From contig NZ_JAHLSY010000001.1 in NCBI RefSeq assembly GCF_019049855.1, positions 124,001-188,000 of the forward strand: 64,000 nt of DNA, read 5' to 3'. The position numbers and the translations under genes were made by a program. Positions 9,970-40,873 of this stretch are shown here, one piece after another (position 1 is the stretch's first letter; the number at the start of each line of letters is the position of its first letter). This stretch comes from Hydrogenophilus thiooxidans (lineage in GTDB: Bacteria; Pseudomonadota; Gammaproteobacteria; Burkholderiales; Rhodocyclaceae). Under the pieces are notes generated by a model. The model did not search any database. It was given only the letters and a program-made list of their open reading frames with translations, and was not told the origin of the DNA.

Positions 9970-10745
9970 CCGTGTCGATCCTGTTCCGATGCGGGCGCAG
10001 GAGGTAACGAGACCGCGAAAGCCTGGTCGTGACGCACGTCGACGCGCGTGGGCATCGCCCCCAAACGGCTCACCAACTGCGGCCAACGCTGACTCAGCCA
10101 CGCCACCCGCTGTTTCACTGCTGCCGGAGACGCGGCAGTTCCCAGCATCCATTCGACAGGCTCGACGAAGGTCAACGTAATCGCCCCCAATGGTGACAGC
10201 GTGATTCCGCCGAGGTGTAACGAATTGGGCAAGACTGGTGCAATCGCTCGAAGGTTGCGAAACCCGTCGATCAGTTGTGCCTCGTGTGCGGCAAGCCAAA
10301 TTCCTTCGCCGTTTTCGGGGGAAAGCCGATCCTGGAAGGGACGCCCTTGCGCGTCGATCCAACGCCACGTGCCGTCATCCAAATTGCGCCAGCGCAATAC
10401 GGCTTTGCGCAACGCCAACTCGATCACCAGCCGGTCTGGCCATACGCGTTCCACACGGACCCGATCGACGACGGGAAACGCCTTCAACTGCCGCTCGATG
10501 CGGATCAGATCGACTTCCCAGAGGGCCTGACCGCGCACCTGCTGTGTCACCGTCTCGACCATCTGTTCTGGGTCGATCTGGGCAACCGACCCTTCGCTCA
10601 CCACCAATGCCACCTCCCGAACCGGCACGAAGAGCTGCGCCCGTACCAGAGCGAGCAAGCCAATCCCCCAGACGAGCAACACCCCTGCCAACGCCACTTT
10701 CGCGCCCAACCGCCACCATTGCGCGCCGCTCAACCGTGCGTGCAC
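9966..10745 (-). CDS. ftsQ: Cell division protein FtsQ
   Basis: FtsQ is a bitopic membrane protein that joins FtsB and FtsL and recruits FtsW/FtsI. The 259-residue product has a basic cytoplasmic start, one membrane helix (VALAGVLLVWGIGLLALV), and a periplasmic POTRA domain (VREVALVV to VERVWPDRLVIELALRKAVLRW) followed by the beta domain. The start is GTG at 10745, giving a 16 nt overlap with ddl; the 3' end overlaps ftsA by 4 nt. Confidence 0.93.
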   Translation of the reverse strand: MHARLSGAQWWRLGAKVALAGVLLVWGIGLLALVRAQLFVPVREVALVVSEGSVAQIDPEQMVETVTQQVRGQALWEVDLIRIERQLKAFPVVDRVRVERVWPDRLVIELALRKAVLRWRNLDDGTWRWIDAQGRPFQDRLSPENGEGIWLAAHEAQLIDGFRNLRAIAPVLPNSLHLGGITLSPLGAITLTFVEPVEWMLGTAASPAAVKQRVAWLSQRWPQLVSRLGAMPTRVDVRHDQAFAVSLPPAPASEQDRHG

Positions 10746-28258: not shown

Positions 28259-28884
28259 AAAAAACGACCCTGACGCTCACCCTAGGGTTGGCGGTGCTCA
28301 CCCCCACCCTGTCGGGCTGCTTTCCCGCAGTCGCCACCGGTGTTGCGGCAACCGCAGCGGTTGCCGCGGACCGGCGAACCGGTGGCGCGATCGTCGAAGA
28401 CGAGCAACTGGAATGGAAGATCAGTAGCGCGATCCAACAAGCGCTTGGCGATCGCGCCCATGTGAACGTCACCTCCTTTAACCGCATCGTGCTCCTCACG
28501 GGCGAAGTCCCCGACGAAGCGGCCAAGCAACGCGCGGAAACACTCGCCAAAAAAACCGAAAACGTCCGCACTGTCGTCAATGAACTGATCATTGCGCCCC
28601 CCTCTGCACTTGCATCGCGCGCCAACGACGCATCGCTCACCACGCAGGTCAAAGCGCGGTTGGTAGGCAACCGTGATGTCCCCGCCCACCTCGTCAAGGT
28701 GGTCACCGAAGGGGGGGTGGTCTTCCTAATGGGGCTTGTGACGCGCCGCGAAGGCGACGCAGCCACCTATGTTGCCCGCACCACCTCAGGGGTGAAGCGG
28801 GTGGTGCGCGTCTTCGAATTCATCAGCGACGAAGAGGCGAAGCGGCTCGATCATGCAGCGAAGCAGTCGCAGAACGGGCGATGA
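28255..28884 (+). CDS. dolP: BON-domain outer-membrane lipoprotein, DolP-like
   Basis: The 209-residue product has a signal peptide with lipobox TLSGC, a short glycine/alanine-rich stretch, and two BON domains (about residues 45-115, with LLTGEVPDEAAKQRAETLAK, and 125-195, with GVVFLMGLVTRREGDAATYVA, each quoted only for its core). DolP (YraP) binds anionic lipids at division sites and supports envelope integrity. It overlaps diaA by 4 nt. A GC-rich hairpin 50 nt past the stop may end the transcript. Confidence 0.88.
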   Translation: MKKTTLTLTLGLAVLTPTLSGCFPAVATGVAATAAVAADRRTGGAIVEDEQLEWKISSAIQQALGDRAHVNVTSFNRIVLLTGEVPDEAAKQRAETLAKKTENVRTVVNELIIAPPSALASRANDASLTTQVKARLVGNRDVPAHLVKVVTEGGVVFLMGLVTRREGDAATYVARTTSGVKRVVRVFEFISDEEAKRLDHAAKQSQNGR

Positions 28885-28934
28885 CGGCTACTGCTTTCTT
28901 CCCTCGCCAACGGAAACAACGGAATAACCCTACC

Positions 28935-28959
28935 GCCCCCTTCGCGCAGCAAAGGGGGC
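28935..28959 (+). terminator. Possible terminator hairpin after dolP
   Basis: GCCCCCTT at 28935-28942 pairs with AAGGGGGC at 28952-28959 around a 9-nt loop. There is no clear T-run after it on the plus strand (ACGCTTTG follows), so it could be a weak terminator or only an mRNA-stabilising stem at the end of yraN-diaA-dolP. Confidence 0.35.
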
Positions 28960-29072
28960 ACGCTTTGGGCGCAAATCCTCTTTCAATATTCATCGTTGCT
29001 AATCGCAACAGCCCGCCAAAGTCATAAACGCACTCCGGAAGTTCACTTTCCGGTGCGCCTCTGCACCATTCA

Positions 29073-29089
29073 TGCACAATTTTGGTGCA
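29073..29089 (+). promoter_or_regulatory. NtrC-type enhancer site upstream of nirC
   Basis: TGCACAATTTTGGTGCA matches the NtrC consensus TGCAC-N7-GTGCA exactly. It is centred about 116 bp before the predicted sigma-54 start, a normal enhancer distance. It overlaps a second palindrome, GGTGCAGTGCACC (29084-29096), and another TGCACC lies at 29062-29067, so several NtrC dimers could bind together. Confidence 0.75.
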
Positions 29090-29170
29090 GTGCACCAAAT
29101 TTCAACAACAATGCCCCTCCGAAAAGCGCAACCTTGCAATTTTTTATTTTATTTCAATAACATACATTTT

Positions 29171-29186
29171 AGGCATCCATTTTGCT
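29171..29186 (+). promoter_or_regulatory. Sigma-54 promoter of nirC
   Basis: AGGCATCCATTTTGCT fits the -24/-12 pattern: GG at 29172-29173 and GC at 29184-29185 with exactly 10 bases between, and a perfect TTGCT at -12. The -24 part is TGGCAC-like with two changes. Transcription would start near 29197, giving an 88-nt leader. Confidence 0.65.
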
Positions 29187-29284
29187 GAGAAAAACTCGGG
29201 CTACCTTGGCCCAAAGTCGGCCAACCGCCCACGGGCACAGCGCCGAAAAGTCCCAGTAACAATAGAATTGAAGGAGGTTTCACC

Positions 29285-30175
29285 ATGTCATATCTCGAAC
29301 CCAGCGAATTCGTCACCAAGATGGTCGATCAAGGTGAATCCAAGGTGTACATGTCCGCCAAGGACACGCTCATCCGCGCCTTCATGGCGGGCGCCATCCT
29401 CGGGCTTGCCGCGATGTTTGCGATTACTGTCACCGTCAACACAGGATCGCCGTTACTCGGTGCCATCCTCTTCCCGGTCGGCTTCATCATGCTTTACCTG
29501 ATGAAGTTCGACCTCCTCACAGGGGTGTTCACGCTGGTGCCGCTCGCGCTGCTCGACAAGCGTCCCGGAGTCACCGTTTCTGAGGTACTGCGCAACTGGG
29601 GACTGGTCTTCATCGGTAATTTCGCCGGTGCGCTTTTTGTCGCCTTCCTGATGTCCTTCATTCTCACCTATGGTTACTCCACCGATGGCGGGGTGATCGC
29701 CGAGAAAGTGGGGCATATCGGCGAAGGGCGGACGCTCGGTTACAAGGCGCATGGCATCGAAGGGTGGTTCACCATCTTTATCCGGGGAATTCTGTGTAAC
29801 TGGATGGTCTCTATGGGCGTAGTCGGCGCGATGATCTCGACCTCCGCTACCGGCAAGATGGCAGCGATGTGGATGCCGATCATGCTCTTCTTCTACATGG
29901 GATTCGAACACTCGATCGTCAATATGTTCCTCTTCCCCTTTTCTATGATCATGGGAGGTGGCTTCACCCTGGCCGACTATTTCATCTGGAACGAAATCCC
30001 CACTGCGCTGGGCAACCTCGTAGGCGGATTTCTCCTCGTCGGACTTCCGCTCTACTATACCCACGTTCGGACCAGCCCAGAACGACTGCTCAAGAACGGC
30101 CGGAACGCTGGCAAAAGCGATCGCGAACCCAGCTCACTCCATCGGTACGGTGAGACACTCAAAGCAAGCCTCTGA
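29285..30175 (+). CDS. nirC: Formate/nitrite transporter family channel, NirC-like
   Basis: A 296-residue membrane protein with six hydrophobic segments typical of the FNT family, pentameric channels for formate, nitrite or similar small anions. It has KFDLLTGVF in the region of the first broken helix, the LCNWMVSMG segment and the central-pore His in GFEHSIVNMFLFP, the residue known in FocA and NirC to control anion passage. Neighbouring nitrate and nitrite reductase genes and NtrC/sigma-54 control favour nitrite uptake or efflux. The last 30 residues are a charged tail beyond the core. A strong AAGGAGGT ribosome site precedes ATG 29285. Confidence 0.85.
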   Translation: MSYLEPSEFVTKMVDQGESKVYMSAKDTLIRAFMAGAILGLAAMFAITVTVNTGSPLLGAILFPVGFIMLYLMKFDLLTGVFTLVPLALLDKRPGVTVSEVLRNWGLVFIGNFAGALFVAFLMSFILTYGYSTDGGVIAEKVGHIGEGRTLGYKAHGIEGWFTIFIRGILCNWMVSMGVVGAMISTSATGKMAAMWMPIMLFFYMGFEHSIVNMFLFPFSMIMGGGFTLADYFIWNEIPTALGNLVGGFLLVGLPLYYTHVRTSPERLLKNGRNAGKSDREPSSLHRYGETLKASL

Positions 30176-30201
30176 CCTCATCACGCCTCTGACCTCATCA
30201 C
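30168..30201 (+). repeat. 17-bp tandem duplication between nirC and the kinase gene
   Basis: GCCTCTGACCTCATCAC occurs at 30168-30184 and again at 30185-30201, followed by another GCCTC. The first copy contains the nirC stop codon. It looks like a slippage duplication that lengthened the gap to the kinase gene. Confidence 0.85.
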
Positions 30202-30248
30202 GCCTCGCCCCCCTACCTGGGGACGAGGCCCCTTGGCGGAACGCGAAC

Positions 30249-31976
30249 ATGTTGCAGGTCAGTGTCGGGCAGTATTCGGACAAGGGGCGCAAAGCGGTCA
30301 ACCAAGATTTCCACGGTTACCTTTGCCCCCCTCGCCATCTTCTCCGGACGAAAGGGATCGCCGCGGCCATCGCCGATGGCATCAGCAGTAGTGCGGTGAG
30401 CCATATCGCGGCCGAAACAGCGGTAAAAAGTCTTCTCACAGACTATTACGACACTTCGGAAGCTTGGTCAGTGAAAAACGCCATGCGTCGGGTCATGGCG
30501 GCCACCAATTCCTGGCTGTACGCCCAGTCGCGCCATCGGCCAGGCCGCTTCGACCTCGACCAGGGATACGTCTGCACCTTCAGCGCGATCGTACTCAAAT
30601 CGCGCTCCGCGCACCTGTTTCACATCGGCGACACGCGGATCTGCCACCTCGTCGGCGACCAGCTGGTCCACCTTAGCGAAGCACATCGCGTCTGGGAAGG
30701 AGAGAAGAGCTACCTCACTCGTGCCCTCGGGATGCGCGAACAACTGGAGATGGACTATCAGCGCTACACCGTAGAGGTGGGTGCCATCCTGATCCTGATG
30801 ACCGACGGCGTCTACGAGCACCTTCCCGACGCCGAAATCGCCCGGCTCATCCGGGAAAACCCAAACGACCTCGACCTGGCTGCAAAACGGATCGTTGCAG
30901 CAGCGCTTGATCGCGGCAGCGACGATAACCTCACCATCCAAATCATACGCATCGAGCAACTTCCTCCCCCCGAGCAGGATGAGCTGAGCGAGGAGGCGGC
31001 TCGTCTGCCACTGCCAGGAGAGCTTCGCCCGCAGAGCGAGCTCGATGGTTACCGCATCATCCGCGAGCTAAACCGTGGCCCCCGCAGCCACCTATACCTC
31101 GCACAGCAGGACGGGAGTGACGCTCGAGTCGTCATCAAGGCGCCAGCAACCGAATTCGCCCACAACCCCGACTACCTCGAACGCTTCCTGATGGAAGAGT
31201 GGATCGCTCGCCGTATCGACAGCCCCCACCTGGTCAAGGCCGCCGAACGCACCACCCTACCCACCGCACTCTATTCGGTTTTTACCTACATCGATGGACA
31301 GACACTCGACCAGTGGATGAAAGACAACCCCACACCCGATCTCGAAACGGTCCGTGTAATCGTCGAACAGATCGCCAAAGGACTTCGGGCGCTCCACCGG
31401 CAAGAGATCATTCACCGCGACCTTCGTCCTCAGAACATCCTCATCGAACCCAACGGTAACGTCAAAGTGATCGACTTCGGCTCGGCGCAGATCGCAGGTT
31501 GGGTTGAAGAGATACCCAAGGACGAATCTGTCCCACCCGGCGCCGTTCCCTACCTAGCCCCAGAGTACCGCCTTGGGGAACGGGGCTCGAAACGATCCGA
31601 CCTCTACTCGCTCGGCGTCATCGCTTACCAAATGTTGAGCGGTGGCCACCTTCCCTATGGCACTGACACCGCCAAGATCGTGAGCAAAGAGGAGCTTTAC
31701 CGACTGCGCTACCGTTCACTGCGCGAGCTGGGCGTTTCCATCCCCTTCTGGGTTGACGCAGCGATTCGAAAAGCCGTCCACCCCAGAGCGGAAAAACGGT
31801 ACGAGAGCCTCTCCGAATTTCTCCACGATTTGCGCCACCCCAATCCCGACTTCGTCCCCATGCATAACCGATCGTTCCACAACCGCGACCCGCTCCTCTT
31901 CTGGAAAACCGTCTCATTCATCCTCTTTTTTTGTCTGCTGGTACTGATTCTAACCCACCCCATGTTGCTCCAGTAA
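30249..31976 (+). CDS. PP2C phosphatase - Ser/Thr protein kinase fusion, membrane-anchored
   Basis: The 575-residue protein joins two signalling enzymes. Residues 1-235 are a PP2C phosphatase: NQDF near residue 19, ADGIS near 42, GDTR near 129, TDGV near 185 and DDN near 225 carry the metal-binding Asp residues. Residues 270-530 are a Ser/Thr kinase with VVIK (Lys297), HRDLRPQN (389-396), DFG (409-411) and APE (437-439). The Gly loop is degenerate and the catalytic-loop Lys is Arg. One helix at about 554-571 anchors the C-terminus. It lies between the nitrite channel and nitrate importer genes, so a role in controlling nitrogen uptake is inferred. A start at 30150 is possible but would cross the tandem repeat. 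Targets are unknown. Confidence 0.9.
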
Positions 31977-31993
31977 GCAACGAGCAATCGCCC

Positions 31994-32052
31994 TGCACCG
32001 AAATGGTGACACAGCGCACGAAATCATCGCAATCGCGCACTGCTGCGGTGCA
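31994..32052 (+). promoter_or_regulatory. Two NtrC-type sites upstream of nrtA
   Basis: Site 1 at 31994-32010 reads TGCACC-GAAAT-GGTGAC (six and four matches in the two halves). Site 2 at 32036-32052 reads CGCACT-GCTGC-GGTGCA (four and six matches). They are centred about 127 and 85 bp before the predicted start and are 42 bp apart, four helical turns. Between them and the promoter lies GACCGA-N13-TCGGTC (32059-32083) with an A-tract, a possible bend or IHF site. Confidence 0.65.
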
Positions 32053-32102
32053 ACATTCGACCGAACCTCAAAAAAAATCGGTCTTTCAACGCCCGTAATT
32101 GA

Positions 32103-32118
32103 TGGCACGTTTTTTGCT
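32103..32118 (+). promoter_or_regulatory. Sigma-54 promoter of the nitrate assimilation operon
   Basis: TGGCACGTTTTTTGCT is a full match to the sigma-54 consensus TGGCACR-N4-TTGCW, with GG at 32104-32105 and GC at 32116-32117. Transcription should start near 32129, which excludes the in-frame ATG at 32125 as the nrtA start and supports ATG 32170. With the NtrC sites upstream, this marks nitrogen-limitation control of the genes through nasA. Confidence 0.88.
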
Positions 32119-32169
32119 GGAAAGATGATTGTGAAACCAGCCGAATCAAATAAAGAGGGGAAGCGAAAA

Positions 32170-33597
32170 ATGAGCAGCAAGCAAGACGGGAAATTTACCA
32201 CTCTGATCGGCCGGAGAACCTTCATGAAAAAAGGGGCAGCCGTGACTGCAGCGGTTATTGGCCTTTCGGCGGGACTGGTACGCACACCGGCACAGGCCTC
32301 GGCAAAGCTGGGGGAACCCGAAAAAGCGGATCTGAAATTCGGCTTTATCAAACTTACCGATATGGCGCCTTTCGCCATCGCCAAAGAGCTCGGTTATTTC
32401 GAAGAAGAAGGACTCTACGTCGAGCTCGAGGCACAGGCCAACTGGAAAGTTTTGCTCGACCGCGTGATCGATGGACAACTGGATGGCGCCCACATGCTGG
32501 CTGGTCAGCCCATTGCTGCAACCATCGGCTATGGCACACAGGCAAACATCATCACGCCAATCTCGCTGGATCTCAACGGAAACGGGATTACCGTTTCCAA
32601 TGTGGTGTGGGAGATGATGAAACCATCGATCCCCCAAGAAAACGGCAAGCCGAAGCACCCGATAGGCGCCGAATACCTCAAGCCGGTGGTCGAGCAATAC
32701 CGGAAAGAAGGAAAGCTGTTCAAGATGGGGATGGTCTTTCCCGTCTCCACCCACAACTACGAATTGCGTTACTGGTTGGCGGCCGGAGGACTCCATCCTG
32801 GCTACTATGCCCCACAACGGGGAGACACCGCCGGTACCATTCAAGCGCAAGTCCACCTCTCGGTCACCCCACCTCCCCAAATGCCGGCCACTCTGGAGGC
32901 GGGAACGATCGACGGCTACTGTGTCGGAGAACCGTGGAACCAGCAAGCGGTCATGCGCGGCATCGGCGTAGCCGTCATCACCGACGATGAGATCTGGAAG
33001 AACAACCCAGAAAAAGTCTTCGGTATTCGCCGCGAATTTGCTGAAAAATTCCCGAACACGACCATTCGCATCGTACGCGCACTGATCCGTGCCCAATACT
33101 GGCTCGATCAGGAAAACAACAAGAACCGACCGGAAGCCGTCAAGATTCTCTCCCGCCCCTACTATGTTGGTGCCGACTACGACGTGATCGCCAACTCGAT
33201 GACCGGATTCTTCGAATACGAGCGGGGAGACAGAAGAGCGGCCCCCGACTTCAACGTCTTCTTCCGTTACAACGCTCCGTACCCATACTACTCTGACGCC
33301 ATCTGGTATTTGACTCAGATGCGGCGATGGGGCCAGATACCGGAACAACGGCCGGACGACTGGTATTTCGAGACGGCGAAAAAGGTCTATCGCCCAGACC
33401 TATACAAAACCGCAGTCGAATCCCTGATTGCAGAAGGGATCATGAATGAATCCGATTTCCCTGAAGAAATCTGGAAAAGCGACGGTTTTCGCCCTGTCCA
33501 GCGGGAATTCATCGATGGAATCCCGTACGACGGAAGGTTTCCCAACCGCTACATCGATTCGTTGCCGATTGGGCTCAAAGGAAACGAAAAGGCGTAG
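32170..33597 (+). CDS. nrtA: Nitrate ABC transporter substrate-binding protein
   Basis: A 475-residue NrtA/NasF-type binding protein that captures nitrate (or nitrite) outside the inner membrane. The N-terminus has a Tat-like signal [16 protein letters not shown] with cleavage near AQASA. The mature part shows the family blocks [38 protein letters not shown], and [15 protein letters not shown] 32170 is chosen over 32125 because the sigma-54 start lies between them, and GAGGGGAAG is a fair ribosome site. It heads the operon and is followed by the permease after 22 nt. Confidence 0.92.
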
Positions 33598-33619: not shown

Positions 33620-34570
33620 ATGAGGAACGATATGGTCCCATTTCGCTTGCCCCCCCTGCGCTCCCTGCTCGCTCCGCTGACCGGCCTCACTCTATTTCTG
33701 GCCGTCTGGCAAGGCGTTGCCAGCCAAATCGATACCACCCTCGGGAAATTTCCTGGCCCGGTCGAAACTTGGCAACAGTTCACCAACCTGATCGAAGAGT
33801 ACCAGCAGGAAAAGATTCGCGAACAAAAGTTTTACGAGCGGCAGCGTATTCGCAACGAAAAGAAGCTGCAGGAAAACCCGAATGCCGAAATCGTCTGGCG
33901 CGAATACAGAGGGATGCCGACCTTTTTCGACAAAATTCGGCGCAGTCTCATCACCGTCGCCTCGGGCTTCCTGCTGGGTTCTCTGATTGCCATACCGGTT
34001 GGATTGCTCATCGGAATCAGCAAAACCGCCTATTCGGCGATCAACCCGATCATCCAGGTGTTGAAACCGATCTCACCGATCGCCTGGCTGCCATTGGTAA
34101 CCATCGTGGTCTCGGCCGTCTATGTGAGCGAATCGCCCCTGTTCGACAAAGCGTACCTTACCTCGATGTTCGTCGTGATGCTCTGCAGCCTCTGGCCCAC
34201 CATCATCAACACCGCGGCCGGTGTCGGCAGCGTCACCCGTGACATGCAGAACGTCAGCCGCGTGTTGCGTCTGAGCCCCCTGACCCATCTGCGCAAGATC
34301 GTCCTGCCTTGCACCATCCCCAGCATGTTCACAGGGCTGCGCATCTCGCTCGGAATCGCCTGGATGGTGCTCATCGCTGCGGAGATGCTCGCTCAGAACC
34401 CGGGGCTCGGCAAATTCGTCTGGGACGAATTCCAGAACGGAAGTTCCCAATCTCTGGCGCGGATCATGGTGGCAGTAGTCACCATCGGCATCATCGGTTT
34501 CCTCCTCGACCGGTTGATGCTGCTCGCCCAACGGTGGGTCTCCTGGGACAAAACGGCCACACTGCGCTGA
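33620..34570 (+). CDS. nrtB: Nitrate ABC transporter permease
   Basis: A 316-residue inner-membrane permease with about six membrane helices. After the first helix a charged, probably helical insert (EEYQQEKIREQKFYERQRIR and on, about residues 55-95) precedes the permease core. The coupling loop to the ATPase is visible in the region MQNVSRVLRLSPLTHLRKIVLP, with downstream GLRISLGIAWMVLIAAEML as in the NrtB/SsuC/TauC group. Nitrate specificity is inferred from the neighbours. It lies 15 nt before the ATPase gene. Confidence 0.92.
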   Translation: MRNDMVPFRLPPLRSLLAPLTGLTLFLAVWQGVASQIDTTLGKFPGPVETWQQFTNLIEEYQQEKIREQKFYERQRIRNEKKLQENPNAEIVWREYRGMPTFFDKIRRSLITVASGFLLGSLIAIPVGLLIGISKTAYSAINPIIQVLKPISPIAWLPLVTIVVSAVYVSESPLFDKAYLTSMFVVMLCSLWPTIINTAAGVGSVTRDMQNVSRVLRLSPLTHLRKIVLPCTIPSMFTGLRISLGIAWMVLIAAEMLAQNPGLGKFVWDEFQNGSSQSLARIMVAVVTIGIIGFLLDRLMLLAQRWVSWDKTATLR

Positions 34571-34585
34571 AAAGGAGCGGCACGC

Positions 34586-35398
34586 ATGAATCCCCCTCTC
34601 CCCCACCTTGAACTCTCTCAAGTCAGCATCGAATTTCCCACGCCGAAAGGCCCATTCCGGGCGCTGCGTGACATCAACCTCAAGATCGCCAAGGGCGAGT
34701 TCCTCTCGCTCATCGGCCACTCGGGCTGCGGCAAATCGACCGTGCTCAACATCATCGCCGGTCTGTATCAACCCACCGAAGGGGTTGTCCTGCTCAACGA
34801 CAGAGAGGTTCGCGAACCCGGTCCCGAACGCGCTGTGGTCTTTCAGAACCACTCCCTCCTGCCCTGGTTGAACGTCTATGAAAACGTCAAACTGGCTGTC
34901 GACCAAGTGTTTCGCGACAAGCCCTCCTCATGGAAAAAGGAGTGGATCGAGCACAACTTGAAACTCGTCCATATGGACCACGCCCGCCACAAGTATCCGG
35001 CCGAGATCTCGGGAGGGATGAAGCAACGGGTGGGTATCGCCCGTGCGCTAGCCATGCAACCGGAGGTCTTGCTGATGGACGAACCGTTCGGCGCACTCGA
35101 CGCCCTTACCCGCGCCCACCTCCAGGATTCGCTGATGGAAATTCAGGAAACGCTCAAAAACACCGTGATCATGATCACACACGACGTAGACGAGGCGGTT
35201 CTGCTCTCCGACCGCATCGTCATGATGACCAATGGACCTGAGGCGACCATCGGCGAAATTCTCCCCATCAACTTACCGCGGCCGCGCAACCGTCTGACAC
35301 TTTCCAAAGACCCTACCTACGCCGCCCTGCGCGCGCATGTCCTCGACTTTCTCTACGCCAAACAAGCTCGCCGTATCGAAGAAGGAGTCCTCGCATGA
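34586..35398 (+). CDS. nrtD: Nitrate ABC transporter ATPase (NrtD/NasD type)
   Basis: A 270-residue ATPase with Walker A GHSGCGKSTVLNI, Q-loop VVFQNHSLLPWLNV, signature EISGGMKQRVGIARAL, Walker B VLLMDEPFGALDAL and the switch His in MITHDVDEAVLL. It lacks the extra NrtA-like domain of cyanobacterial NrtC, so it is NrtD-like; two copies should pair with two NrtB permeases. The last 4 nt overlap the nirB start (ATGA). Confidence 0.93.
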   Translation: MNPPLPHLELSQVSIEFPTPKGPFRALRDINLKIAKGEFLSLIGHSGCGKSTVLNIIAGLYQPTEGVVLLNDREVREPGPERAVVFQNHSLLPWLNVYENVKLAVDQVFRDKPSSWKKEWIEHNLKLVHMDHARHKYPAEISGGMKQRVGIARALAMQPEVLLMDEPFGALDALTRAHLQDSLMEIQETLKNTVIMITHDVDEAVLLSDRIVMMTNGPEATIGEILPINLPRPRNRLTLSKDPTYAALRAHVLDFLYAKQARRIEEGVLA

Positions 35399-37836
35399 GA
35401 AAACCACGTCTTGTCGTGGTCGGCAACGGCATGGCTGGCTGCCGAACCCTGGAAGAGTTGCTGAAATTGGCGCCGGACCGCTACGAGATTACCGTATTCG
35501 GCGCCGAACCCCACCCCAACTACAACCGCATCCTCCTCTCGTCGGTTTTGGCTGGTGAGGTACCGTTCGTCGAGACGATCCTCAACGACCCCACCTGGTA
35601 CGAAACCCATGGCATCCGGCTGCATCTCGGGAAACGAGTCGTCGAAATCGACCGCATCTCCCAACGAGTCGTCGCCGAAGACGGCACGAGCGCCGAATAC
35701 GACCGCCTACTCCTTGCCACCGGATCGTCACCAGCCATCCTGCCGGTTCCTGGAAACGACCTTCACGGCGTGATCAGTTGGCGTGACATCGCCGACACCG
35801 AAGCGATGATCGAAGCCAGCCAAAAATACCGCCATGCGGTCGTCATCGGTGGAGGGCTTCTCGGCCTGGAAGCAGCCAACGGACTGGCGCTGCGCGGAAT
35901 GACGGTAACGGTGGTCCATATCGGAGCATGGTTGCTCGAGCGCCAACTTGACCGCTATGCCGGGGAACTGCTGCAAAAATCGCTGGAAGCAAAAGGGTTG
36001 CGTTTCATGCTTCAGACCGAAACTCGAGCGCTTCACCCAGGTCCCGATGGGCGGGTGCAAAGCGTCGAGTTCGCCGACGGCTCCCGAGTGGAAGCTGACC
36101 TCGTCGTCATGGCCGTAGGCATCCGGCCGAACATCGAACTGGCGCAGCGCGCCGGTCTCTACTGTCGTCGCGGCATCGTCGTCAATGACACCCTCCAGAC
36201 CTACGATCCGAAGATCTACGCGGTTGGCGAGTGTGTCGAACACCGTGGCGTCACCTACGGGCTGGTGGCCCCCCTCTTCGAACAAGCCAAGGTCTGCGCC
36301 AACCATCTCGCAGAGTTCGGCATCGCCCGATACACCGGCTCTGTCACCTCGACCAAACTCAAGGTCACCGGCATCGACCTCTTCTCGGCGGGCAACTTCA
36401 TGGGCTCGCCACAGAGCGATTTCATCACCTTCACCGACCCGTCAGCTGGCGTTTACAAGAAACTGGTGATCGAAGGCGACCACTTGGTCGGCGCTGTTCT
36501 CTACGGCGACACCGTCGATGGTGCTTGGTACTTCCAGCTCATCAAAGACCGGCAGAAGATCACAGAAATCCGCCACCAACTGATGTTCGGCCCCCATCAC
36601 CTCGGAAATACAGGTCACAGCGGTGAAAACCGCGCTGCAGCCATGCCCAACGACGCCGAGGTTTGCGGCTGTAATGGCGTCACCAAAGGGGCAATCGTCG
36701 CGGCAATCAAGGCCAACGGCCTCTTCACTTTGGAAGATGTGCGCAAGCACACCAAAGCCTCCTCAAGTTGCGGTTCTTGCACTGGCTTGGTAGAACAGAT
36801 CCTGGCCAATGTACTCGGCAGCGTTTACCAGCCGAACAATACCCGCGAAAAACCGATCTGCGACTGCACTGATCTCACCCACGCCGAAGTTCGGCAAGCG
36901 ATCCGTGAGCAGAAGCTCCTCTCGATTCCGCAGGTGATGGAGACGCTCGGTTGGCGAACCCCAGACGGTTGCGCCACTTGCCGCCCCGCCCTCAACTACT
37001 ATCTGATCTCCACCTGGCCCCACGAAGCGCAGGACGACCCCCAGTCCCGCTTCATCAACGAACGGGCCCATGCCAACATCCAGAAAGACGGCACATTCAG
37101 CGTGGTTCCCCGGATGTGGGGCGGTCTGACCAACCCGACGGAGCTGCGAGCGATTGCCGATGTGGCGGAAAAATTCCGTGTCCCAACGATCAAACTCACC
37201 GGCGGGCAGCGCATCGACCTGCTCGGTGTCAAGAAGAACGACCTACCGAAGATCTGGGCCGAATTGGGTAAGGCTGGACTCGTTTCCGGCCACGCCTATG
37301 GCAAATCGTTGCGCACCGTAAAGACATGCGTTGGAGCCGAACATTGCCGTTTTGGCACGCAGAAATCGATGGGACTCGGCATTCGTCTGGAAAAAGCGCT
37401 CTTCGGCATGTGGTCGCCACACAAGGTCAAACTGGCCGTCTCGGGATGTCCGCGCAACTGCGCCGAATCGGGAATCAAGGATGTGGGCATCATCGGTGTC
37501 GACTCCGGTTTCGAAATCTACATCGGCGGCAACGGCGGGATCAAAACCGAAGTGGCTCAATTCCTCTGCAAGGTCAAGAGTGAGGAAGAGGTCATCGAAT
37601 ACGTGGGGGCCTTTTTACAACTCTATCGCGAAGAGGGTTTCTACCTCGAACGCACCTGCCACTACCTGGCCCGCGTCGGCCTCGACTACGTCAAAGCACA
37701 GATCGTCGACAACCCCGAGAAAAGGCAGGCACTTTACGAACGGCTCCTCTACTCGCTCCAGGGCGTGGAAGATCCCTGGCAGAAAGCCGTTGCAACCCAA
37801 GACCGAGAATACGCCATCATGGAGATGACCGAATGA
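35395..37836 (+). CDS. nirB: Assimilatory nitrite reductase, large subunit
   Basis: NirB reduces nitrite to ammonium in the cytoplasm with six electrons from NAD(P)H. The 813-residue protein has, in order, an FAD/NAD-binding reductase part (VVGNGMAGCRTLEELL near residue 6, VVIGGGLLGLEAANGLAL near 150), two BFD-like [2Fe-2S] segments (CGCNGVTKGA about 423 to CGSC about 459; CDCTDLTHAE about 489 to CATC about 526), a ferredoxin-like half domain, and the sirohaem-[4Fe-4S] site (CVGAEHCRFG near 644 and SGCPRNC near 684). It overlaps both the upstream ATPase gene and nirD by 4 nt. Confidence 0.97.
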   Translation: MRKPRLVVVGNGMAGCRTLEELLKLAPDRYEITVFGAEPHPNYNRILLSSVLAGEVPFVETILNDPTWYETHGIRLHLGKRVVEIDRISQRVVAEDGTSAEYDRLLLATGSSPAILPVPGNDLHGVISWRDIADTEAMIEASQKYRHAVVIGGGLLGLEAANGLALRGMTVTVVHIGAWLLERQLDRYAGELLQKSLEAKGLRFMLQTETRALHPGPDGRVQSVEFADGSRVEADLVVMAVGIRPNIELAQRAGLYCRRGIVVNDTLQTYDPKIYAVGECVEHRGVTYGLVAPLFEQAKVCANHLAEFGIARYTGSVTSTKLKVTGIDLFSAGNFMGSPQSDFITFTDPSAGVYKKLVIEGDHLVGAVLYGDTVDGAWYFQLIKDRQKITEIRHQLMFGPHHLGNTGHSGENRAAAMPNDAEVCGCNGVTKGAIVAAIKANGLFTLEDVRKHTKASSSCGSCTGLVEQILANVLGSVYQPNNTREKPICDCTDLTHAEVRQAIREQKLLSIPQVMETLGWRTPDGCATCRPALNYYLISTWPHEAQDDPQSRFINERAHANIQKDGTFSVVPRMWGGLTNPTELRAIADVAEKFRVPTIKLTGGQRIDLLGVKKNDLPKIWAELGKAGLVSGHAYGKSLRTVKTCVGAEHCRFGTQKSMGLGIRLEKALFGMWSPHKVKLAVSGCPRNCAESGIKDVGIIGVDSGFEIYIGGNGGIKTEVAQFLCKVKSEEEVIEYVGAFLQLYREEGFYLERTCHYLARVGLDYVKAQIVDNPEKRQALYERLLYSLQGVEDPWQKAVATQDREYAIMEMTE

Positions 37837-38141
37837 ACCTTTGGAAAAAAGTTTGTCCGCTCGAGCAGATCCCACGCCTCGGGGCAATGCGGATCGAGAC
37901 CCCCAAAGGCGCAATCGCCCTCTTTCGCACACGGGACGACCAGCTCTTCGCGGTCACCGACCGCTGTCCCCACAAGGGTGGTCCGCTCTCGCAGGGAATC
38001 GTCGCCGGCCATGAAGTCACCTGTCCGTTGCACGGTTGGCGGATCGACCTCACCACCGGTGAAGCGGTTTCTCCTGACAAGGGATGCGTAACACGCTACC
38101 CCACCAAAGTCGAAGAGGAGTGGGTATGGATCGCGCTGTAA
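37833..38141 (+). CDS. nirD: Assimilatory nitrite reductase, small subunit
   Basis: A 102-residue Rieske-fold protein, the small subunit partner of NirB. Both cluster-binding motifs are intact: CPHKGGPLSQG and CPLHGWRIDL. E. coli-type NirD lacks these ligands, so this version should hold a real [2Fe-2S] cluster and may help feed electrons to the sirohaem. It overlaps nirB by 4 nt and nasA by 16 nt, so the three are probably translationally coupled. Confidence 0.93.
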   Translation: MNLWKKVCPLEQIPRLGAMRIETPKGAIALFRTRDDQLFAVTDRCPHKGGPLSQGIVAGHEVTCPLHGWRIDLTTGEAVSPDKGCVTRYPTKVEEEWVWIAL

Positions 38142-40873
38142 CGAATCGGCGCAAAATCACCGAAGTGAAGAGCGTCTGCTGCTACTGCGGCACCGGCTGC
38201 GGGGTGGCCATCGAAACCGACGGTGTCAACCTTCTCAACGTCCGCGGCGATCCCGACCATCCCGTGAACCGCGGACAACTTTGCATCAAAGGGCAAACCC
38301 TTGCAGCAGCGCACGTACGCACCGGCAGGGCCACGCGGCCTCTGATACGCCCAAAGCGGGGCGCTGCGTTCCAGCCCACCGACTGGGACACGGCGCTGCG
38401 CCTCAACGCGGAACGCTTCGCGCAGATCATCGCCACCCACGGCCCGGATGCGGTTGCTTTCTACGTTTCCGGGCAACTCCTCACCGAAGACTACTATCTC
38501 TTCAACAAACTGGCGCGGGGACTGGTGGGCACCAACAACATCGACTCCAACTCGCGTCTCTGCATGTCCTCGGCCGTTACCGCCTATAAGTCCACCTTGG
38601 GCAGTGACACTGTGCCCTGCTGCTACGAAGACATTGATCTCGCTGACCTATACCTCCTGGCAGGCAGCAACGCTGCAATCACCCATCCTATCCTGTTCCG
38701 CCGGATCGAGGCGGCCAAAAACCGCCATCCTGAACGCCAGATCCTCGTCATCGACCCGCGCCGCAGTGAAACCGCCGCATACGCAGACCTGCACCTGGCC
38801 ATCCAACCGGGGACCGACACGTTTCTCTTCCTGGCAATGCTCCACGTGCTCGTCTGGGAACGGATGATCGACGAGGCGTTCATCGCCACGCACACCGAAG
38901 GGTTCGAAGCTCTGCGCCGTGAACTCGCCGAGCTCACCCCCGGCGCTGTCTCGCCGATCTGCGGCCTCAGCCCAAAAACCATCGTCGACGCAGCGCGACG
39001 CTTCGGAAGCGCGCAGTCCCCCCTCTCCTTGTGGTGCCAGGGACTGAACCAGTCGATCCATGGAACCAGCAACGGTGTGGCGCTCATCCACCTTCACTTG
39101 GCCACCGGTAAGATCGGGCGACCGGGCATGGGGCCCTTCTCGCTTACCGGTCAGCCCAACGCGATGGGCGGCCGCGAGACTGGCACCATGGCCACCCTGC
39201 TCCCCGGCCACCGCGACCCCAACTCGGAGAAAGACCGAAGCGAACTCGCTCAACTCTGGGGCATCCCCTCCCTGCCCGAGCGTCCAGGAAAAACCGCGGT
39301 CGAAATCTTCGACGCTCTTGCCGAGGGCACGATCAAGGCCATCTGGATCGCGTGCGCCAATCCGGCCCATTCGCTCCCCCACCTGGAACATGCTGTCGAA
39401 GCCTTGCGCCGCGCCGAATGGGTCGTCCTCCAAGACGCGTGGCAGGATACCGAAACTGCCCCGTTTGCCGATCTTCTTCTTCCCGCTGCAACCTGGGGTG
39501 AAAAAGAGGGAACGATGACCAACTCGGAACGGCGAATCAGCCGCGTGTGCACCGCCGTACCCCCTCCTGGTGAGGCCAAACCCGACTGGTGGATCGTCCA
39601 GGCTTTCGCCCGGCATCTGGGCAAAGCCCTCGGCATACCGGAGCGGGCCGAGCGCCTCTTTTCCTTCCCCACCGAAGAGGCGATCTTTCTCGATTATGCC
39701 CGAACCACTGCGGGCACCGAGATCGCTATCGAAACGCTCACCTACGCCACGCTCGACCAGCTTGGACCGCAACAGTGGCCCTTTACCTCCGGTCAAAGTC
39801 AAGCGCGCCCCTTCTCCGATCACCGTTTTTCCTATCCCGACGGCAAAGCTAGATTCCAAACGCTCGATCGCGGCCGTCTCCCCGAGCAAATCGACGCGCG
39901 CCACCCTTTTCTGCTCATCACCGGACGGTTGCGCGACCAGTGGCACGGGATGAGCCGCACAGGACGCATTCCGCAACTCTTCCGCCACGACCCTGAACCG
40001 GTCGTGTGCATGAACCGCACCGACATCGAACGGCGCGGTTGGCATGAAGGGGATCTGCTGCGCCTGCGCAGCCGACGCGGCGAACTCATCCTGCCGGTAG
40101 CCGCCGCAGACGAAGTCCGCAGCGGCCACCTGTTCCTTGCTATGCACTGGGGCAGGCGTTCTCTTTCGGGCGAAGGGAGCAATGCGCTCACTTTGGCCGT
40201 CACCGATCCCCTCTCCAAACAGCCTCACCTGAAACACGCAGCGGTGCGCGTCGAAAAATGCAACCTGCCGTGGCGAACCGTCATCCTGCGCCGAAGCGAT
40301 CACCCAGATAACCCGATCGAACCCCTGCTTCAATGGCAAGCAGCGTTACGCCCTCTGGTGGCCAACTTCCCTTACGCGGCCCTGACCCTCGACGAAGGAC
40401 GCTGGCCGATCCTGCGCGTCACCCTCGCCCATAGCACTCCTCCCGAAGACGAGCTTCTGGAACGGTTGGCATCGCTCCTCGCACTCAGCGGGCCGGAGCT
40501 TCTGCAATACGAAGACCGCAGCAACCACATCCTCAAACGGGCGCGCATCGCTGAGCGGCAACTGACCGGTATCCTGCTGAGCGGAGAAACCGCGGCGGCA
40601 CATTGGCTCTGCGAAGCGATCAAGAACGGGACCCAAACCGATACATTCCACCGCTGGCTCTTCGCTCCGTTGGCGGAACCGCCACTTGCCGACCTCACAT
40701 CCAGCCGCATCGTCAGCAACTGTCGTATGGTCAGTGAAACGGCCATACGCAGTGCCGTTGCGGCTGGCGCCGACCTCGAACGGCTACAAGCGGAACTCGG
40801 ATGCGGCACCGTGTGCGGCTCATGCCTGCCAGAAATCCGGAAAATCACCTTAGAAGCGCGCGCCGTTCAATAA
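38126..40873 (+). CDS. nasA: Assimilatory nitrate reductase, catalytic subunit with C-terminal [2Fe-2S] domain
   Basis: NasA reduces nitrate to nitrite in the cytoplasm at a molybdenum bis-MGD centre. The 915-residue protein has the N-terminal [4Fe-4S] motif CCYCGTGCGV (about residues 17-26) with the fourth Cys in GQLCIKG, molybdopterin-binding blocks such as LLAGSNAAITHP and GRPGMGPFSLTGQPNAMGGRE, and a C-terminal molydopterin-dinucleotide domain. The last 55 residues are BFD-like: NCR, then CGTVCGSCLPEI. This extra domain is known from Klebsiella-type NasA. ATG 38126 is inside nirD; no T-run terminator follows, and the 3' end overlaps the convergent glycosylase gene by 7 nt. Confidence 0.95.
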   Translation: MDRAVTNRRKITEVKSVCCYCGTGCGVAIETDGVNLLNVRGDPDHPVNRGQLCIKGQTLAAAHVRTGRATRPLIRPKRGAAFQPTDWDTALRLNAERFAQIIATHGPDAVAFYVSGQLLTEDYYLFNKLARGLVGTNNIDSNSRLCMSSAVTAYKSTLGSDTVPCCYEDIDLADLYLLAGSNAAITHPILFRRIEAAKNRHPERQILVIDPRRSETAAYADLHLAIQPGTDTFLFLAMLHVLVWERMIDEAFIATHTEGFEALRRELAELTPGAVSPICGLSPKTIVDAARRFGSAQSPLSLWCQGLNQSIHGTSNGVALIHLHLATGKIGRPGMGPFSLTGQPNAMGGRETGTMATLLPGHRDPNSEKDRSELAQLWGIPSLPERPGKTAVEIFDALAEGTIKAIWIACANPAHSLPHLEHAVEALRRAEWVVLQDAWQDTETAPFADLLLPAATWGEKEGTMTNSERRISRVCTAVPPPGEAKPDWWIVQAFARHLGKALGIPERAERLFSFPTEEAIFLDYARTTAGTEIAIETLTYATLDQLGPQQWPFTSGQSQARPFSDHRFSYPDGKARFQTLDRGRLPEQIDARHPFLLITGRLRDQWHGMSRTGRIPQLFRHDPEPVVCMNRTDIERRGWHEGDLLRLRSRRGELILPVAAADEVRSGHLFLAMHWGRRSLSGEGSNALTLAVTDPLSKQPHLKHAAVRVEKCNLPWRTVILRRSDHPDNPIEPLLQWQAALRPLVANFPYAALTLDEGRWPILRVTLAHSTPPEDELLERLASLLALSGPELLQYEDRSNHILKRARIAERQLTGILLSGETAAAHWLCEAIKNGTQTDTFHRWLFAPLAEPPLADLTSSRIVSNCRMVSETAIRSAVAAGADLERLQAELGCGTVCGSCLPEIRKITLEARAVQ

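Follow-up and report, generated by a model that had tools for sequence, protein, structure and literature searches.

The stretch analysed here (the window) comprises 64,000 nucleotides (nt) of the genome of Hydrogenophilus thiooxidans and encodes a protein in which a PP2C phosphatase is fused to a Ser/Thr kinase, its gene lying directly behind that of an FNT-family anion channel. We see an even chance that this fusion is a nitrogen-controlled, membrane-tethered kinase-phosphatase which gates the neighbouring transporter. The domains, the conserved active-site residues, the hydrophobic C-terminal helix, the pairing with a transporter and the promoter-like sites are all read from the sequence. 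In an even sample of 369 genomes of the class (threshold for the fusion, E <= 1e-60), about a third (122, that of H. thiooxidans included) hold the fusion, and its closer relatives stand nearly always beside such a transporter. The features of the pair are as follows:

29285..30175, + strand: FNT-family anion channel, putatively for nitrite or cyanate (PF01226, 228.6 bits; GGAGG before the ATG)
30249..31976, + strand: PP2C phosphatase-Ser/Thr kinase fusion with a C-terminal membrane anchor (Pfam, AlphaFold2, alignment coverage)
30288..30953, + strand: PP2C domain, residues 47-268 (PF13672, PF00481 and SpoIIE matches; fold neighbours)
31050..31838, + strand: Hanks-type kinase domain, residues 301-563 (PF00069, 120.4 bits; NF033483 aligns over 301-563; PknB/StkP-like by sequence and fold)
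31425..31427, + strand: codon for Arg426, the residue of HRDLRPQN that marks the FNT-partnered clade (alignment)
31890..31955, + strand: C-terminal hydrophobic helix, residues 581-602 (AlphaFold2; hydrophobic 19-mer in relatives)

The PP2C domain lies N-terminal to the Hanks kinase on one chain, which ends with a single hydrophobic helix (PP2C_2 over residues 47-229, 57.4 bits against a cut-off of 24; Pkinase over residues 301-516, 120.4 bits against 31.7). An AlphaFold2 model made with 62 family sequences has a mean predicted local distance difference test score (pLDDT) of 90.4 and a predicted template modelling score (pTM) of 0.86, with the long helix 581-602 near its end. In an alignment of 215 rows (9 of 223 fusion open reading frames (ORFs) were dropped by length and that of the window was added), the metal-ligand residues of the phosphatase are conserved (in rounded figures, D53 98%, D76 100%, G77 99%, D219 99% and D259 100%), as is the core of the kinase (VAIK Lys K330 100%, alpha-C Glu E349 99%, HRD Asp D424 99% and Asn N429 100%, and DFG Asp D442 100%). 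A hydrophobic 19-mer, scored by simple hydropathy and not by a topology predictor, falls within the last 60 residues in 214 of the rows, the sole miss holding masked residues. The original prediction, made from the sequence of the window alone, had described just such a protein, with PP2C Asp motifs, a Ser/Thr kinase and a membrane helix, directly behind the FNT gene and ahead of nrtABD, and the description holds in each of these points.

The longest ORF of the fusion runs from 30150 to 31976 (+; 608 amino acids) with a GTG start and would overlap the FNT stop; the ATG at 30249 lies 73 nt past that stop and gives no overlap. This ATG is probably the start, because residues 1-30 have a pLDDT below 50 in the AlphaFold2 model of the long ORF and few relatives have letters there (residues 1, 20, 30 and 33 are filled in 29-38 of the 215 rows, residue 34 in 205). 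The last bases of the FNT gene and part of the gap that separates it from this ATG are covered by a 17-nt tandem direct repeat (30165-30198).

Among solved structures, the kinase is closest in fold to PknA and PknB, and the PP2C domain to tPphA (ranked first), PppA and Stp-type phosphatases; by sequence, the kinase is nearest to StkP and PknB among solved chains. None of the 50 fold matches listed is a PP2C-kinase protein, and full-length PKC chains align over 450-490 columns with a root-mean-square deviation above 21, which we read as showing no architecture in common with the fusion. As a PASTA kinase the protein does not qualify, since NF033483 scores 169.8 bits against a cut-off of 450 and is matched at positions 9-267 of its 563. 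The relatives listed from plasmids (20) are 39-53% identical to the fusion, and most are annotated as bifunctional protein-serine/threonine kinase/phosphatase or with the same two activities. The fusion is not the only PP2C/kinase system of its genome, because a second PP2C and a second kinase give separate, adjoining matches on the minus strand (C2:171073-171672 and C2:171806-172588).

The kinase motifs depart from the canonical pattern in two places, both of which had been noticed in the original prediction. The glycine-rich loop does not follow GxGxxG, and its degeneration is shared by the family as a whole. The Lys expected in the catalytic loop of Hanks kinases is Arg426, which, as read from the alignment, is a mark of the FNT-partnered clade and not decay: among FNT-partnered rows, 71 of 78 have Arg at position 426, and among MFS-partnered rows 101 of 102 have Lys and 1 has Arg, the K/R difference needing 9 changes on the fusion tree. 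Because it is conserved across the FNT-partnered clade, we do not regard Arg426 as the defect for which it might be taken. It is very unlikely that the kinase half performs no phosphotransfer and instead helps to scaffold or assemble the transporter, with the PP2C domain alone, or neither domain, at work; the family-wide loop, the change of K to R in the FNT clade and the replacement of the HRD Arg by Gln in 76% of rows (the fusion of the window keeps Arg) would fit such a loss, but the 99-100% conservation of K330, E349, D424, N429 and D442 is that expected under selection for catalysis.

The pairing was followed in loci that reach as far as 8 kb to either side of a fusion (142 places in 141 loci outside the genome of H. 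thiooxidans; one locus, L117, had no callable fusion ORF, which leaves 141 places). Neighbours were clustered by similarity and the clusters named by Pfam and NCBIfam on one representative each, NirB and the reductase being recognized by the proteins of the window or their pattern. Close relatives (350 bits or more) occupy 115 places, 9 of them within 900 nt of an upstream contig end; among the 106 that can be assessed, 99 have a transporter as the first or second gene upstream, in the same orientation (74 MFS of the NarK/NasA type and 25 FNT), 2 have an FNT gene that is divergent, and at 5 neither kind is present. An association with nitrogen genes across genomes had been set beforehand as a test of the original prediction, and the 99 places show such an association. 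Where the transporter is the gene immediately before the fusion, the median gap, with starts taken from the longest ORFs, is 25 nt for MFS (n=101) and 39 nt for FNT (n=71).

Counted by genome, a transporter is held by 108 of the 122 fusion-bearing genomes versus 8 of the 247 without a fusion, and a fusion is held by 90 of 94 genomes with the MFS transporter and 33 of 37 with a close FNT. Of 45 genomes, the count leaves out 8 in which the FNT is no more than 42% identical (one of them, G107, has a fusion), and the MFS query is itself a paired protein and so favours paired relatives; moreover, related genomes are not independent, and the Fisher values for the co-occurrence are therefore descriptive only. 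Among the four genomes with an MFS transporter and no fusion, G123 carries part of a fusion at the end of a contig (L269). In G085, a genome without a fusion at the threshold, the FNT match (L267) comes in two adjacent pieces in different frames and is probably broken. Twenty genomes have more than one fusion: 12 hold exactly one MFS-type and one FNT-type copy, none holds two of one kind, and 8 include an unassigned copy.

Loci from a species collection, found via patterns of the window's fusion and rich in Psychrobacter, give a similar picture, with an FNT (50) or MFS (21) gene upstream in 71 of 76 places, 2 of the other 5 being at contig ends. The closest relative there (63%; L003, 10019-11749), which has an FNT three genes before it, is from a record named Pirellulaceae (KatS3mg111) and would represent either transfer between phyla or a mis-binned contig. 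On plasmids, whose gene tables are incomplete by their own description, an FNT and a fusion are accompanied by cynS in two of six stretches (Acinetobacter, Psychrobacter) and by no nitrate gene in the annotated stretch in three (Azospirillum, Methylobacterium, Cupriavidus); on the Sulfitobacter plasmid the fusion stands at the start of the record and is followed by cynS. Since these plasmid pairs of FNT and fusion have cynS or no nitrate gene nearby, it is the transporter that stays constant beside the fusion, rather than the enzymes of nitrate use. On a FastTree tree of the fusion, which carries long branches and composition warnings, the kind of partner changes 2 times over 180 rows with a known partner, and the presence of cynS changes 13 times over 78 FNT rows.

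Form_Nir_trans covers residues 8-258 of the 296 of the channel, but its substrate cannot be named from curated models, because TIGR00790 (151.5 of 232.3 bits), FocA (136.3 of 290.1) and NirC (54.7 of 293) all score below their cut-offs. Within six genes of the 25 FNT-type places of the class sample, cynS occurs at 13, NirB, NirD or the reductase at 3 and none of these at 11 (two have both); for the 50 FNT-type places of the species collection the corresponding counts, which like the former include places near contig ends, are 14, 19 and 21 (four have both). A nitrite or nitrate reductase gene is thus lacking within this distance at 22 of 25 and 31 of 50 places, and FNT plus fusion occur with neither reductase nor cyanase at 11 of 25, 21 of 50 and 3 of 5 plasmid loci. 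The FNT-fusion pair is not nitrate-specific, and the arrangement of the window is one of several. Of the post-translational switch for nitrate or nitrite flux that the original prediction had put forward, a switch on flux is retained as the best reading, and specificity for nitrate is given up, in view of the 22 of 25 FNT places without reductase genes and the 13 with cyanase. In H. thiooxidans itself nitrite is the likelier anion, because no cyanase match is found in its genome, and cyanate use is not claimed for this organism. An FNT gene beside cynS in nitrifiers has been read as a cyanate transporter on genomic evidence only (PMC10753782), and mutants of Pseudomonas pseudoalcaligenes have led to the proposal that cyanate enters via nitrate/nitrite transporters (PMC6627978). 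However, cyanate is no inhibitor of nitrite uptake by NitM (PMC4390861), which weighs against cyanate, if for a different FNT. The cyanase link also points to an anion for an uncharacterised group of FNT proteins. Possibly, although on balance we doubt it, the pair is a portable phospho-gated channel cassette, an FNT with its own tethered kinase-phosphatase that has moved between genomes and plasmids, has been plugged in beside nitrite reductase or cyanase and would switch cyanate or nitrite uptake by reversible Ser/Thr phosphorylation, with a sister version for the MFS nitrate transporter; no description of such a channel came up in the literature searched.

Sites resembling those of NtrC and sigma54, whose consensus sequences are TGCACYNNNNNGGTGCA and YTGGCACNNNNNTTGCW, respectively, precede both the pair and the genes that follow it:

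29073..29089, + strand: NtrC-like enhancer site TGCACAATTTTGGTGCA, 1 mismatch to TGCACYNNNNNGGTGCA
29170..29186, + strand: sigma54-like promoter TAGGCATCCATTTTGCT, 2 mismatches to YTGGCACNNNNNTTGCW, weak alone
31994..32010, + strand: weaker NtrC-like site before nrtA, 2 mismatches, no more than chance would give over the window
32036..32052, + strand: NtrC-like site before nrtA, 1 mismatch
32102..32118, + strand: sigma54-like promoter ATGGCACGTTTTTTGCT before nrtA, 1 mismatch
32125..33597, + strand: nrtA-type nitrate-binding protein (NMT1_2, 319.6 bits)
33620..34570, + strand: nrtB permease with a charged insert (BPD_transp_1; TIGR01183, 172.0 bits, below the cut-off of 209)
34586..35398, + strand: nrtD ATPase (TIGR01184, 355.4 bits)
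35395..37836, + strand: nirB, nitrite reductase large subunit (TIGR02374, 931.4 bits)
37833..38141, + strand: nirD, nitrite reductase small subunit (TIGR02378, 102.9 bits)
38084..40873, + strand: molybdopterin oxidoreductase with a BFD domain (Pfam domains; no NCBIfam cut-off reached among the matches listed)

The start of nrtA is more likely the ATG at 32170, because the sigma54-like site ends 7 nt before 32125, and the molybdopterin oxidoreductase is probably the assimilatory nitrate reductase, a name that rests on its nirBD context. With at most 1 mismatch, NtrC-like sites occur in the window only at 29073-29089, before the FNT gene, and at 32036-32052, before nrtA; with 2 mismatches there are 14 versus 11.6 expected, that is, chance level. 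Genome-wide there are 28 strand matches at <=1 mismatch versus 11 for the reversed pattern. The sigma54 consensus at <=3 mismatches gives 148 matches in the window, equal to the chance expectation, and the 1-mismatch matches are 32102-32118 and one other (10675-10691, minus strand). Of the sigma54-like matches we therefore use only the close ones in the gaps ahead of the FNT gene and nrtA, together with their enrichment in the family. Among relatives, sigma54-like sites (<=2 mismatches) stand before 76 of 97 MFS units versus 27 of 318 other genes of the same loci, and before 44 of 79 FNT units versus 26 of 290; for NtrC-like sites (<=2 mismatches) the numbers are 52 of 97 versus 22 of 318 and 25 of 79 versus 11 of 290. 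Random stretches of the same loci give backgrounds similar to those of the other genes, and 6 of 103 MFS and 1 of 80 FNT upstream regions were dropped as too short or containing N. The genome has an RpoN gene as well as a perfect NtrC-like site 897 nt before one PII gene, with one ORF between; the frame after this PII gene is presumably AmtB. A scan for sigma70 promoters from 28800 to 32300 gave no site. Judging from these motifs, the window probably holds two nitrogen-limitation transcription units, one of FNT and fusion and one of nrtABD, nirBD and the reductase, the nrtABD block being probably separate because NtrC- and sigma54-like sites of its own precede nrtA.

We propose that the FNT channel and the fusion form a two-gene module that would be expressed under nitrogen limitation through NtrC and sigma54. 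The channel would admit a small nitrogen anion, nitrite here and cyanate in the cynS-linked relatives, and the C-terminal helix would hold the fusion in the inner membrane beside it, with both catalytic domains in the cytosol. The fusion might then phosphorylate and dephosphorylate the transporter of the adjoining gene, or a subunit bound to it, in a cycle that lets uptake proceed or curbs it before the anion reaches toxic levels; the sister clade would do likewise for the unrelated MFS nitrate transporter NasA. In this proposal we infer that both enzymes are active, how the chain lies in the membrane, which substrate it acts on, what cue it answers to, in which direction it controls uptake and which anion passes. 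The best case for the transporter as target comes from position, in that two unrelated folds have one dedicated fusion each while reductases and cyanase come and go, and to that extent it is indirect.

The sites of phosphorylation that the original prediction had suggested, the charged tail of the FNT channel and the charged insert of the NrtB permease, can be set aside. Columns 286-296 of the FNT tail are filled in 1 or 2 of 81 paired FNTs, that of the window included, and columns 270-285 are partly filled and hold no conserved residue. The NrtB insert, of about 45 residues, has no Ser or Thr in the window's protein from residue 56 to 100, although some relatives' inserts carry a Thr near the end; among 18 NrtB matches in the loci, the alignment runs through the insert in 7, one match is too fragmentary to tell, and NrtB without an insert is also present in fusion loci. 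At the other end of the channel, T/S11, S19, S24 and T25 are kept in 68-72 of the 81 paired FNTs, and T/S11 is found in 72 of these versus 3 of 9 unpaired ones, which are few and related, so that it is kept only as a lead. In FocA the N-terminus is described as cytoplasmic (PMC5572259).

Several results weigh against a gated transporter. No Ser or Thr tracks pairing in the FNT (81 paired, 9 unpaired) or MFS transporters (92 paired; 92 of 103 were kept, those of 440 amino acids or less being dropped), and S19, S24 and T25 of the FNT are also kept in 6-7 of the 9 unpaired proteins. Ser14 of the MFS transporter, at first look present in 72 of 92 paired versus 0 of 6 unpaired proteins, is rejected as a phosphosite, being a clade trait absent from 20 of the 92, at least most of which stand beside kinases with ordinary motifs. 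In the P+1 loop, the fusion of the window has A465 where 81% of rows have Thr. Distant fusions (below 350 bits; 26 places, 5 at contig ends) have an MFS gene upstream in 8 of 21 assessable places, 4 of the others having a transporter elsewhere nearby and 9 none, and once 35 unassigned or contig-end rows are given separate states, 21 changes on the tree are required for the MFS label. Eight close FNTs (L259-L266) have no matching fusion alongside, although that of L266 is at a contig end. Finally, in a mirror-tree comparison that leaves out near-copies at >=95% identity, the fusion of the MFS set follows NirB (0.73, n=60) more closely than it does the MFS transporter (0.57), and its correlation with the FNT is weak (0.32, n=28, and 0.35, n=18).

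Of these eight FNTs, those of L263-L266 stand beside cynS and are candidate cyanate channels; the contig of L266 ends just after cynS, and a fusion may lie beyond. That of L259 is beside nirD and nirB, that of L261 behind reductase and CobA genes, and those of L260 and L262 are close to CobA, their frames hidden by an overlapping ORF in the ORF listing. In 5 of these 8 genomes a fusion is found elsewhere. Some distant PP2C-kinase fusions (about 30% identity; L245, L248, L249) lie near genes for amino-acid permease-like proteins, EutB, aldehyde dehydrogenase or amine oxidase. Because some distant fusions adjoin amino-acid permease, EutB or amine oxidase genes, the pairing rule is limited to a subfamily and does not extend to all PP2C-kinase fusions; perhaps the same idea applies there to the uptake of amines or ethanolamine.

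The close tracking of NirB in the MFS set is what would be expected if the target were soluble and shared (NirB, nitrate reductase, cyanase or PII, that is, GlnB/GlnK) and the adjacency to transporters came only from co-expression. One common substrate would also account for two unrelated transporter partners, and the top-ranked solved PP2C fold is the cyanobacterial tPphA, which we take to be a PII phosphatase. However, the modules of FNT and fusion that have neither reductase nor cyanase within six genes leave no single enzyme constant, and a membrane anchor would be an odd choice for such a protein. Ser49 is the site at which cyanobacterial PII is phosphorylated, and it is rejected as the target since the two high-scoring PII proteins of the genome have Ala there (YRGAEY); the genome also holds a third, weaker PF00543 match. 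Taken together, we find a soluble target rather unlikely. Less likely still is a kinase-phosphatase directed at itself, at the activation loop, that relays nitrogen status to general targets and for which the transporter is the input sensor and not the output. The presence of both activities on one chain and the close pairing would suit such an input, and as no periplasmic domain follows the helix, an external cue would need a partner protein; but two unrelated transporter folds, with one copy each in 12 genomes, fit dedicated outputs at least as well, and no general target is described in the literature found. The gated transporter remains the preferred reading.

Ammonium uptake has a known switch at the protein level in AmtB-GlnK, whereas to our knowledge it is largely open how the uptake of nitrate, nitrite or cyanate is stopped at that level in heterotrophic bacteria. 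Should the fusion act on the transporter, the pairing would represent a widespread post-translational control of nitrogen-anion uptake, with kinase and phosphatase on one chain and an obvious candidate target. The architecture of the fusion (2005) and the adjacency of nasA and a kinase gene (2013) are already in print. As far as literature searches show, the following are new: the pairing rule in its quantitative form, an FNT sister clade marked by Arg426, the connection with cyanase, cassettes carried on plasmids, the pattern of one copy per transporter and the NtrC/sigma54-like starts. A description of the pair of FNT and PP2C-kinase was not found in the open-licence literature, which leaves out most subscription journals; the word kinase is absent from the main text of PMC4390861 and PMC10753782, and kinase and cyanate from that of an FNT survey (PMC5525234), and PMC4899447 does not mention kinase.

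Among known systems, the separate kinases and phosphatases PknB/StkP and PstP/Stp share the kinase and PP2C folds with the window's fusion, which differs in having no PASTA part matched, both domains on one chain and a C-terminal anchor. Another counterpart is the PP2C-plus-kinase class of Pseudomonas, to which PA1782 probably belongs. P. aeruginosa is described as having at least three Ser/Thr kinases, with PA1782 among them (PMC8560001). The class, uncharacterised when first reported in 2005 (Krupa and Srinivasan, PMC1262709), has, like the window's fusion, PP2C N-terminal to the kinase on one chain; the available part of that report gives no genomic context, transporter pairing, membrane helix or FNT-type clade. 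In the operon nasST-nasA-ppkB-nasDEC-cobA of Pseudomonas sp. UW4, the kinase gene ppkB lies immediately behind the NarK-family nasA, and the authors of that study draw a parallel with plants and yeast, where nitrate transporters are phosphorylated (PMC3596284, 2013). Here, as in the window, a kinase gene directly follows a nitrogen transporter gene, although the partner is MFS and not FNT, the case is a single genome, a phosphatase domain goes unmentioned in the available text and the likeness is one of description. The FNT gene next to cynS in nitrifiers shares its adjacency to cyanase with the cynS-linked relatives of the pair (PMC10753782). Lastly, the cyanobacterial FNT nitrite transporter NitM, for which reversible control has been proposed given the toxicity of excess nitrite, has an inhibitory C-terminal segment; it is controlled via a conserved tail, whereas the tail of the window's FNT is not conserved, but it offers a precedent for the post-translational control of an FNT nitrite channel (PMC4390861).

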